A stretch of 64,000 nt of DNA, from positions 1 to 64,000 of the forward strand of contig QHYH01000142.1 in NCBI GenBank assembly GCA_003223215.1, written 5' to 3'. The notes under the pieces were generated by a model, which was not told the origin of the DNA, made no database searches, and was given only the letters and a program-made list of their open reading frames with translations. Source of the DNA: Acidobacteriota bacterium. Lineage in GTDB: Bacteria > Acidobacteriota > Terriglobia > Acidiferrales > UBA7541. The translations under genes and the position numbers were made by a program. Of this stretch, positions 37,441 to 40,099 are shown piece by piece (within the stretch, counting starts at the first letter, position 1; every line of letters begins with the position of its first letter).

Positions 37441-38469
37441 CTATGACCGTTCGGCGGCGAAGACGCGGGGGATGCCGGCGAGGTCGTTGGTCACACTCAC
37501 TCCGGTCCAAGCCGGTGCGTCGAGCAGAGGCTTTACGGCGGGCAGACTGTCGTGGCCGAGTTCGAGGACGAGAATCCCCCGCGGCAGTAGATATTTTGCC
37601 GATTGCGCGATGAGATCGGCGTAGAGTTCGTAGCCTGCCTCGCCGCCGTAAAGCGCGATTTCCGGTTCGTGCTCGCGGACTTCGCGCATGAGCGTTGCGG
37701 CTTCGCGGCGGCCGACGTAGGGCGGATTGCTGACAACTACATCGAAGCGAAACGGCGAGTCTCGACCAGTGGGATGAGGAACGCCAAAGGATTGCGGATC
37801 CCCGTTGCGGAGTAGCTCGCACGGAACGATTGCAGTGGTGGAAGGATGAGGAAGAACGTTGGCGGCAAATGGCGTCGCAACGACAAGGTCTTCCAATAAA
37901 TCGGATTGGAAGAAAAGCATGCGATCGGAGACGCCGTGCCGTTCGGCATTGCGACGAGCCACTTCAAGGGCGGCGCCGGAAATGTCCAGGGCGAAAAGGA
38001 TTGCGCCAGGGAGCGCTTTTGCCAGGGCAATGGCAATGCACCCGGAGCCGGTGCCCACATCGGCAATGCGCAATCCTTCGCCGCTAAACGGTTGACGCCG
38101 TCCAGCACGAATTTCACGAGCCGCCAGGCGTTCCAGAGCAACTTCGATGACGTGTTCAGTCTCCGGGCGCGGGATCAAGACATCCGGCGTGACTTCGAAT
38201 TCGAGGCCCCAGAATTCCTGTTTGCCGGTCAGATGCTGGGTCGGTTCACCCGCCGCGCGACGACGAATGAGCGCGGAATAGTGCTCGGCATTCACCAGAG
38301 ATATTTCTTCTTCGGGATGGGAATACATCCATGTGCGATCGCGGCCCAAAACATGAAGCAGTAGCAGTTCCGCGGCAAGCGTGTAGGAAGGCACCTGGGC
38401 ATCACGCAGCTGCGCGATGCCCGATTTTATCAGGGTGCGAACGGATTTTGCTTCGGAAACGCGGTTCAT
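37441..38469 (-). CDS. prmC: Release factor glutamine methyltransferase PrmC
   Basis: PrmC methylates the GGQ glutamine of peptide release factors. The SAM motif is IADVGTGSGCIAIALA and the catalytic motif SNPPYVG. At 342 residues it is about 50 longer than usual. The surplus, about residues 197-240, sits just before NPPY and contains two similar segments, NVLPHPS and GVPHPT, encoded by a 10-bp direct repeat 72 bp apart. The start ATG overlaps the stop of the repeat protein by 4 bp. Its substrate RF1 is encoded two genes upstream. Confidence 0.95.
   Translation of the reverse strand: MNRVSEAKSVRTLIKSGIAQLRDAQVPSYTLAAELLLLHVLGRDRTWMYSHPEEEISLVNAEHYSALIRRRAAGEPTQHLTGKQEFWGLEFEVTPDVLIPRPETEHVIEVALERLAAREIRAGRRQPFSGEGLRIADVGTGSGCIAIALAKALPGAILFALDISGAALEVARRNAERHGVSDRMLFFQSDLLEDLVVATPFAANVLPHPSTTAIVPCELLRNGDPQSFGVPHPTGRDSPFRFDVVVSNPPYVGRREAATLMREVREHEPEIALYGGEAGYELYADLIAQSAKYLLPRGILVLELGHDSLPAVKPLLDAPAWTGVSVTNDLAGIPRVFAAERS
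37772..37853. repeat. 10-bp direct repeat, 72 bp apart, inside prmC
   Basis: GGATGAGGAA occurs at 37772-37781 and 37844-37853. The period is a multiple of three, so the frame is kept. It marks the unusual insertion in front of the NPPY motif and could be the scar of an in-frame insertion or duplication. Confidence 0.6.
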
Positions 38470-38972
38470 CCAATGAGACTTTCTTTTTGCTTGCCGCCGC
38501 TGGACTCGTCTCGGCCTAGCGCAACGCCTGGTCCTGCATACGCCCACCGGCCAATCACAAGACTCCCTAGAGCCGCCTGGCCAACCGCGACGGCTCCCAG
38601 AGTCAACCAACCCACCGACAATCCACCGAGGGAAAGGAATCCAACGCTGATGCCTCCGAACGAGATGACTCCCGCGCTGACCCCGCCTACGGCGATGATT
38701 CCCGTGGCTAAGCCGCCGTAGGCGATGACGCCATGCGCCCTTCCCCCCATCGACGATAGCGGCATGCCCACAATTTGAATCGGGGAGTTGTACAATCGAA
38801 CGTGCCTGCCGTCGGCGCGATAAACGGCAATGTCGCCGACTACAATCGCAGCTAGCTGGATCACCCCGACAAAAACAATGATGCTTAAGATGGCTTTGCG
38901 AAGTTGCCGAGGGTTGCCGCCGAGTCTCCGCATCCATTCGGGACCGGGTTCAGAGCCGGGGCGGGTCAGCAT
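38466..38972 (-). CDS. Membrane protein with seven decapeptide glycine repeats
   Basis: The 168-residue protein has one clear hydrophobic helix (ILSIIVFVGVIQLAAIVV, about residues 29-46). From residue 81 to 150 it is built of seven 10-residue units of the form G-x-x-x-x-G-G-x-x-x (GVIAYGGLAT, GIIAVGGVSA, GVISFGGISV, GFLSLGGLSV and three weaker copies). The spacing of Gly suggests a glycine-zipper helix bundle in the membrane or a beta-solenoid. It sits between prfA and prmC with a 4-bp overlap to prmC. Function is unknown. Confidence 0.75.
   Translation of the reverse strand: MLTRPGSEPGPEWMRRLGGNPRQLRKAILSIIVFVGVIQLAAIVVGDIAVYRADGRHVRLYNSPIQIVGMPLSSMGGRAHGVIAYGGLATGIIAVGGVSAGVISFGGISVGFLSLGGLSVGWLTLGAVAVGQAALGSLVIGRWAYAGPGVALGRDESSGGKQKESLIG
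38523..38732 (-). repeat. 30-bp coding repeat, seven units
   Basis: The units encode the decapeptides of the membrane protein. Protein-level similarity is clear for the first four units. DNA identity is lower, which suggests old repeats kept by selection on the protein, not recent slippage. Confidence 0.7.
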
Positions 38973-39007
38973 GCGGCGCCTCCTTACGAAAAGAATGCTT
39001 GCCAGGA

Positions 39008-40099
39008 TTATGCCTCAGCAAGTTCCTGTTGGAGGCGCTCGGCTTCGTAATGGGAAACCAGCGCGTCCACGAGCGGTGCGAGTTTGCCGTCCATGACCTC
39101 GGTCAATTGATGGAGCGTCAGGCCGATGCGGTGATCGGTCACGCGGTTTTGCGGAAAATTGTAGGTGCGGATTTTCTCGGATCGGTCGCCGCTTTTGATC
39201 TGCCCGCGGCGCTCTGCGACGATGGCCGCTTGCTGCTTTTCCTGCTCGAGTTCGTAGAGGCGCGCGCGTAGAACGCGCATGGCCTTTGCGCGATTCTTGA
39301 TTTGGGATTTTTCGTCCTGTTGCGAAACGACCAAGCCCGTAGGCAAATGTGTGATACGCACGGCGGAATAGGTGGTGTTCACAGACTGGCCGCCGGGGCC
39401 GGAGGAGCAGAAAGTGTCGATGCGCAGATCTTTCGGCTCGATCTTGATGTCGATTTCGTCGGCTTCGGGCAACACGGCGACCGTTGCCGCCGAAGTGTGG
39501 ATGCGCCCTTGCTGCTCGGTCGCGGGAACGCGCTGTACGCGATGCACGCCGCTTTCGTATTTCAGCCTGGAATAAACCTTGTTCCCCTGAATCGCGGCAA
39601 CCACTTCTTTCATTCCCCCAAGCGAAGACGGCGAACTTTCGAGGACCTCCACTTTCCAGCGCTGCGTTTCGGCGTAGCGCGAATACATGCGGAAAAGCTC
39701 AGCGGCGAAAAGCGCGGCTTCGTCGCCGCCCGTGCCGGCGCGGATTTCGATGAGCACGCTTTTCTCCTCGTTGGGATCCTTGGGAAGAAGCAAAAGTTTC
39801 AGCTCGCGCTCGACGGTTTCCTTGCGCGCAGCGAGCGCTTTCTCTTCGTCGTGCGCCATCTGCTTCATCTCGGCGTCGTCCGCTTCGAGGAAGAGCTGAT
39901 GCGCCCCGGCGAGATCTTTCACGATTTGCTTGTATTCGCGATGTTTCGCGACGATTTCCTCGAGCTCGGCATGCTGCTTGGCGATCTTCTGAAAGCGCGC
40001 GGAATCACCCACGACTTCCGGCGAAGAGAGCTGCTGCGTCATCTCCTCGTAGCGCGAATCGAGCTGGTCCAACTTTTCGGTCAGTGTAAGAACGGCCAT
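39008..40099 (-). CDS. prfA: Peptide chain release factor 1
   Basis: The 363-residue RF1 terminates translation at UAA and UAG. The GGQ motif is [17 protein letters not shown], and the codon-recognition region is [11 protein letters not shown], as expected of RF1 and not RF2. The length is standard. It is first in a minus-strand run with the repeat protein and prmC, the usual prfA-prmC pairing with an inserted gene. Confidence 0.97.

Follow-up and report, generated by a model that had tools for sequence, protein, structure and literature searches.

The nearest described systems are the YadA-like heads, the pentapeptide repeat proteins (PF00805), and the pentapeptide-repeat protein HglK. YadA-like heads (7o23, 3s6l, and 1p9h) are left-handed parallel beta-rolls of secreted trimeric adhesins, with 14-residue repeats (PMC9543794). 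Pentapeptide repeat proteins fold as a right-handed four-sided helix with 20 residues per coil, each side having five residues and two core positions two apart, and PMC8145042 gives their consensus as [STAV][DN][LF][STR][G]; HglK is described in the same paper as a protein of 727 aa with four predicted membrane spans and, in a separate C-terminal region, 36 repeats of AXLXX consensus. The gene analysed here encoded a different pentad repeat behind a single predicted membrane helix, and lay between the translation-termination genes prfA and prmC.

The repeat gene and the prfA–prmC locus

In the window (the whole 64,000-nt stretch of DNA that was analysed), the gene for a predicted pentad-repeat membrane protein of 168 aa occupied 38466..38972 on the minus strand, stop codon counted. 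It was preceded, 6 nt ahead of its ATG, by the Shine–Dalgarno sequence AGGAGG (38979..38984, minus strand; read from the sequence). Upstream by 35 nt lay prfA (release factor 1; 39008..40099, minus strand; NF001859/TIGR00019), and downstream lay prmC (release factor N5-glutamine methyltransferase; 37441..38469, minus strand; TIGR03534, E 5.9e-78), whose start overlapped the stop of the repeat gene as ATGA; both prfA and prmC passed the NCBIfam cut-offs. The coupling to prmC and the proximity to prfA reported in the initial annotation were thus borne out. PrmC itself displayed a hypervariable stretch directly ahead of NPPY, differing in length and sequence among relatives, and its frames ranged from 305 to 355 aa in the nine compared.

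The sequence comparison was extended to 11 loci. AGGAGG or GGAGG stood before the start codon in all of them, and the ATGA overlap with prmC was kept in seven (the window, L006, L007, L010, L011, L012, and L013); the ATG of prmC lay 8–9 nt downstream of the repeat gene in L004 and L018, and the overlap could not be resolved in L005 and L008. Three close orthologue pairs (L004, L005, and L018; one sub-lineage only) gave dN/dS values of 0.04–0.13, by which measure close relatives of the repeat gene are under purifying selection. The strong ribosome site, the overlap with prmC, and the low dN/dS therefore together indicate a translated and selected gene.

A protein search of the window's genome plus 150 relatives gave matches in 14/151 genomes at E<=0.001. 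Intact orthologues were found in nine of the 36 genus genomes, counting that of the window, and in G084, from another genus of the family, and all 10 sat between prfA and prmC. G034 gave a second match which, like those in G050, G078, and G088, was another protein whose fetched flanks contained no prfA or prmC. No copy was found in 26/36 genus genomes, and one more kept a remnant (G024: an 86-aa frame at the same site, without repeats); several of the genus genomes are incomplete, such that some absences may represent missing data. Conservation of the position, as raised in the initial annotation, thus held for every intact orthologue found in the family, but the gene itself was absent from most genomes of the genus.

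Across the 27 genus genomes where it could be measured, the distance from prfA to prmC was bimodal: 638–683 nt in seven, which had the repeat gene, and 102–272 nt in 20, in which prfA and prmC were adjacent without the repeat gene. Two of these 20 (G030 and G018, close relatives of the window) retained shreds of it, one keeping pieces of the N-terminus plus the C-terminal tail and the other the tail alone. In a PrfA tree of 40 rows, which did not contain the carriers G008 and G084, eight carriers were scattered in a 26-row clade and mixed with the three remnants G018, G030, and G024. Judged by eye, this tree suggested one gain followed by roughly nine to eleven losses, with exchange of the prfA–prmC region between lineages as a possible alternative to repeated loss; the gene is dispensable, whether by losses or by exchange. 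The slot also held other material: in L086 (G119), from another family of the class, a different hydrophobic ORF of 103 aa filled the prfA–prmC gap, and in L084 (G093) larger, unrelated ORFs were found there, so that the slot seems open to insertions.

The initial annotation had placed the gene within a translation-termination operon. The ATGA overlap conserved at seven of the 11 loci speaks for a factor of termination or of PrmC, a role that we nevertheless regard as very improbable: the gene is absent from most genus genomes in which prfA and prmC remain (20/27 of those measurable), it appears to have been lost repeatedly, unrelated ORFs take its place in other lineages (L084 and L086), and the module that it carries accompanies kinases and sigma factors elsewhere (see below). 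Because prfA and prmC stay when the repeat gene goes, adjacency to prmC does not imply joint work; the gene probably has no role in termination, and a tempting link, itself probably wrong, is thereby removed.

An alignment query of genome contigs recovered 11 loci, in records titled Acidobacteria group 2, Acidiferrum, Acidoferrales, and similar, plus one Rhodobacteraceae bin; a single-sequence scan of genome contigs gave no relative, an alignment search gave no match in viral contigs, and tblastn with two queries gave no match in plasmids with the BLAST low-complexity filter on. The locus from the Rhodobacteraceae bin (L032, bin UBA10424, 4001–4486) was a full-length window-type relative outside the phylum, with hydrolase-like and glutathione-transferase-like ORFs alongside (by eye), and neither prfA nor prmC flanked it; it would represent either a horizontal transfer or a mis-binned contig.

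Repeat architecture

The repeat had initially been described as seven decapeptide units G-x4-G-G-x3 forming residues 81–150. All seven decads did carry Gly at position 1, but only the four units within residues 81–120 followed the strict pattern: positions 6–7 were G-A and G-S in the units starting at 121 and 131, respectively, and A-G in that starting at 141. Moreover, the repeat began at residue 76, from which 14 consecutive Gly followed at a spacing of 5 up to residue 141. Shuffling the whole protein 20,000 times produced at most 9 Gly in such a run and, against the seven observed, at most 4 successive G-x4-G decads, and neither observed run was reached when only the last 108 residues were shuffled 20,000 times; the glycine repeat is not due to chance.

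The basic unit was the pentad G-x-[LIV]-[AS]-[VLI], not the decad, which had been perceived because GG falls in every other pentad. Gly pairs within residues 76–155 numbered 13 at spacing 5, 16 at spacing 10, six at spacing 4, six at spacing 6, and none at spacing 3 or 7; the earlier idea of a glycine zipper (GxxxG) clashes with these values, since it needs spacing 4, where six pairs were seen against 13 at spacing 5. Over 362 pentads of 32 proteins, the consensus was G (92%), G or a bulky apolar residue, [LIV], [AS] (86%), and [VLIF], the two percentages being partly built in, as the choice of runs required each pentad to open with G/A and to have a small residue or Pro in fourth place. These 32 proteins, also used in the face and charge analyses below, were a selection from the loci that left out near copies and doubtful cases (e.g., L005, L009, L011, L018, L035–L037, L042, L047, L049, L053, L056, and L061). 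Unbroken runs of 15–19 pentads (75–95 aa) were present in 11 of the 32, and by the same rule the window's own run comprised 12.

The window protein could be divided into four parts, all on the minus strand: (i) an N-terminal hydrophobic helix at about residues 27–50 (38823..38894), from hydropathy; (ii) an N-cap motif Y-x-S-x5-G-M-P-L at residues 61–72 (38757..38792), from profile and module alignments; (iii) the pentad-repeat domain at about residues 76–159 (38496..38747), a predicted beta-solenoid (see below); and (iv) a conserved C-terminal cap plus tail at residues 143–168 (38469..38546), for which the alignments gave the orthologue consensus YAYAGNGVAYG...GRQKExLxG. The window domain spanned 108 aa, against 117 aa in eight of 10 orthologues, 116 aa in one, and 98 aa in L032; aligned with the orthologues, it showed a 10-residue gap and one additional tail residue.

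An unnamed module shared with signalling proteins

The initial annotation knew no family for this repeat, and none emerged: no Pfam, NCBIfam, PHROGs, or PADLOC model matched the window protein, Pfam giving 0 families at E<=1 and at E<=10, PF00805 and PF05658 included. In the proteins scanned (four with PHROGs and three with PADLOC, whose sole match was the kinase fusion L041), the repeat region gave no match to these four libraries that was above cut-off or convincing, and strong matches fell on fused parts. The weak Pfam rows were a GLTT repeat (E 0.033, L051) and DUF1192 (E 0.016, L045), and the zinc ribbon of L033 scored 24.3 bits, below the cut-off of 27. No paper recognised as dealing with the YxS-GxPL pentad module was found in the literature searches.

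Two features characterised this wider module, namely an N-cap Y-x-S-x4/5-G-x-P-L and, behind it, a run of G-x-[LIV]-[AS]-x pentads; both were present in the window protein, the cap by profile alignment. The module profile found the window protein with E 2.6e-17, the match beginning past the cap at model position 29. In hhalign, the window-type domain (a profile of the orthologue-domain alignment, window protein included) aligned with the wider module at 99.6% probability and E 1.3e-23 with the N-cap aligned, the two profiles having 1.8 and 3.6 effective sequences, the shared repeat possibly inflating E, and the cap part being short. The profiles thus place the window protein in an unnamed acidobacterial YxS...GxPL module that is rare elsewhere.

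The orthologue profile had matches in 43 of 396 sampled Acidobacteriota genomes (not individually cleaned), and the module in 38 of 297 sampled Acidobacteriota genomes (not cleaned). Of 29 loci read (L033–L061), most had the cap Y-x-S...G-x-P-L or a variant, and several resembled fusions: (i) to Ser/Thr kinases in six (L039, L040, L041, L046, L047, and L055); (ii) to ECF sigma factors in three (L044, L054, and L060), with an acyltransferase in addition in L054; and (iii) to an N-terminal zinc ribbon in two (L033 and L042), these calls resting on Pfam for L041, L054, and L033 and made by eye for the others. Among Pseudomonadota, 11 of 299 sampled genomes were matched, with four clear members (L159, L160, L161, and L162), and another survey matched seven of 289 genomes, with one clear member (G535); L061, L101, L104, L106, L165, and L169 were discounted by eye as low-complexity or other-frame matches, and L166 was doubtful. 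An arrangement of ECF sigma factor, several membrane helices, and pentad module was observed in two phyla (L044, L054, L060, and L162; Pfam on L054 only).

With regard to the initial annotation, which made its proposal depend on the gene commonly adjoining prfA/prmC and on the lack of a functionally assigned family, no such family was found, but outside its lineage the module did not sit beside these genes: neither was present at the six non-orthologous loci tested (L014, L015, L016, L019, L032, and, as a doubtful match, L002). A repeat module that occurs in fusions with Ser/Thr kinases and ECF sigma factors was thus without a counterpart in all four profile libraries; a name for it would provide an annotation for many 'hypothetical' proteins as well as for the ends of signalling proteins.

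Predicted fold

The structure prediction proposed in the initial annotation returned strand through the repeats, read here as a putative beta-solenoid. For the window protein, AF2 gave a mean pLDDT of 63 (69–81 over residues 81–150; the other four of five models 41–48), with helix at residues 21–54 and strand at 79–159; the 117-aa domain of the orthologue L024 was modelled as nearly all strand with pLDDT 86 and pTM 0.67, three of the five models having pLDDT 28–33. Foldseek against PDB yielded no match at E<=0.001, the absence of a pentapeptide-repeat chain among the matches listed proving nothing, and a sequence search of solved structures gave a best E of 0.81. With VIA-align, YadA-like heads came top for the L024 model (Z 11.0, 10.4, and 9.3; rmsd 5.8–6.3; 100–111 residues aligned), in a range where, for repeats, Z below about 13 may mean merely a common arrangement. 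In two of these three alignments, 111–115 model residues ran alongside 159–163 residues of the 14-residue-repeat protein, a ratio that fits about 10 residues per coil; the third (3s6l), at 111 versus 132, disagrees with 10 to 14.

A sister family (L100, L102, L103, L163, L164, L168, and L016; all except L016 from searches around the Rhodobacteraceae bin) displayed hydrophobic GAxAL pentads that continued into charged ones such as GRLEI DELxV, and looks like one solenoid changing from an apolar to a polar surface. In 17 pentads of its polar runs (two from L166, an unlike low-complexity protein), positions 1, 2, and 4 were polar in 53, 88, and 82%, respectively, and positions 3 and 5 hydrophobic, the latter being required before a run was extended, which leaves only the polar result informative. 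This would make positions 3 and 5 the core and positions 1, 2, and 4 the outside; with Gly at position 1, Gly or a bulky apolar residue at position 2, and Ala/Ser at position 4, the exterior of the window solenoid would be apolar. An inward-facing position 4 was dropped given its polarity in the sister family.

These predictions have to be weighed against a Gly-rich alpha-helical transmembrane bundle, with the solenoid as an AF2 artefact. PMC11795689 does report that AF2, when given random sequences repeated perfectly, returns confident yet unrealistic beta-solenoids, in some cases with hydrophobic residues at the surface, and both the hydropathy of the repeats (1.1–1.7) and a chance-level weak match to V-ATPase subunit K (E 7.7) would suit a bundle. 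This reading is nonetheless quite unlikely: Gly pairs peaking at spacing 5 and 10 offer an alpha-helix no face, about 80 residues pass without a loop break, and the pentads of the sister family continue into polar ones. The best reading of the window domain is a narrow apolar beta-solenoid, as modelled. Two other folds were considered and dropped: the knotted solenoid, reported from one narrow bacterial group only (PMC13123833), and the beta-flower, an antiparallel barrel (PMC10584680 and PMC7618865).

Predicted membrane topology

That the protein is a repeat-built membrane protein, as initially annotated, was supported by the N-terminal helix predicted from the hydropathy and charge scan. K/R residues numbered five before and three after the window helix, and an excess before the helix was found in eight of nine window-type proteins (exception, L013), by which the window-type solenoid would begin outside the cytosol. 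The ECF sigma fusions displayed the reverse: the last helix ahead of the solenoid had its K/R excess after it in all three (L044, L054, and L060, the helices of L060 sorted by eye). Nine proteins had a helix following the solenoid; the excess lay on the far side of this helix in eight and was tied in one, two of the nine contrasts being 1 v 2 only. Together with the cytosolic nature expected of kinase and sigma parts, this charge pattern suggests that in fusions the chain crosses the membrane by way of the solenoid, which is a lead and not a result.

Such a solenoid would be all-apolar and two-sided, crossing the inner membrane end to end in place of a transmembrane helix, and one of its ends could bear a kinase or sigma factor in the cytosol. 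Its start would lie inside and its end outside by the fusion charges, and the hydropathy of the window repeats stays at 1.1–1.7 throughout with no hydrophilic loop. With a strand spacing of 4.8 A per coil and 10 residues per coil, runs of 15–19 pentads would measure 36–46 A, near bilayer thickness, but the runs of kinase and sigma fusions were shorter or irregular (5–13 pentads) and that of the window was 12; the two 1 v 2 contrasts weaken the charge argument, sidedness was not readable in 13 of 15 stand-alone proteins and the kinase fusion L040, which had no other helix, and an odd number of alpha-helices would yield an identical topology. A membrane-spanning solenoid is therefore held as tentative and rather doubtful. 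In the library of papers searched, no paper used a phrase for a beta-solenoid or beta-helix that spans a membrane or is embedded in one; if true, such a crossing would be a new way of building an inner-membrane protein.

The hydrophobic faces might instead be buried between subunits, not in lipid, in an oligomeric beta-roll outside or beside the membrane, resembling a YadA-head trimer or a larger stack. Position 5 of the GX face was polar (S and T counted) in 0/64, 1/32, and 1/85 cases, whereas the GG face admitted polar residues there, among them R, T, and S, in 17% of the pentads of window-type proteins and 26% of those of stand-alone ones, a contrast that one buried face, as in an oligomer, would also explain; the closest solved geometry is a trimeric head, and some stand-alone members had a heptad-like N-terminal stretch (L038, L043, and L045; by eye). 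In the kinase and sigma fusions both faces were apolar (GG-face position 5 polar in 3%), which together with their charge pattern and the empty YadA_head search of the window's genome (see below) leaves the oligomer unlikely.

The preferred reading, to which we give about an even chance, is an optional envelope protein that consists of a membrane helix and a narrow apolar beta-solenoid, serves as a scaffold or tether, and hitch-hikes in the prfA–prmC operon. A short cytosolic N-terminus would lead into one membrane helix, the YxS...GxPL cap, the solenoid, and the YAYAGNGVAYG cap; the solenoid would have sides of five residues, probably two of them giving 10 residues per turn, with pentad positions 3 and 5 as its core and an apolar exterior buried in lipid or against its own copies. 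The scaffold role derives from the fusions, as these suggest a membrane-bound module holding or sensing for cytosolic partners; a membrane-bound scaffold or tether could do the same job when fused to kinases and sigma factors. The gene itself would travel in the operon, co-translated with prmC yet unneeded for release-factor methylation.

Comparison with known systems

Compared to the unnamed acidobacterial YxS...GxPLVH...ARGIIAIGD module, the window type shared the N-cap and the pentads but was extended by an N-terminal membrane helix and by the YAYAGNGVAYG/GRQKE tail, and had no polar insert after the cap. The likeness of YadA-like heads to the L024 model was one of geometry only, a narrow parallel beta-roll at Z 9–11 (Z 11.0, rmsd 6.1, and 111 residues aligned for the predicted model); their repeats are of 14 residues compared with about 10 in the model, and, unlike these secreted adhesins, the window protein had no sequence-family match to them, a scan of the window's genome with the YadA_head profile (PF05658) giving no match at E<=1. 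Pentapeptide repeat proteins agreed in their five-residue sides and in two core positions two apart (the core here taken from the sister family), but their consensus was unmet at the surface, which here would be Ala/Ser, Gly, and Gly or bulky apolar. Their coil has 20 residues; for the solenoid modelled here, the alignment lengths in two of three VIA-align matches would suggest about 10. HglK likewise joins membrane helices to pentad repeats, but differs in its far greater length, its separate C-terminal repeat region, and its AXLXX consensus.
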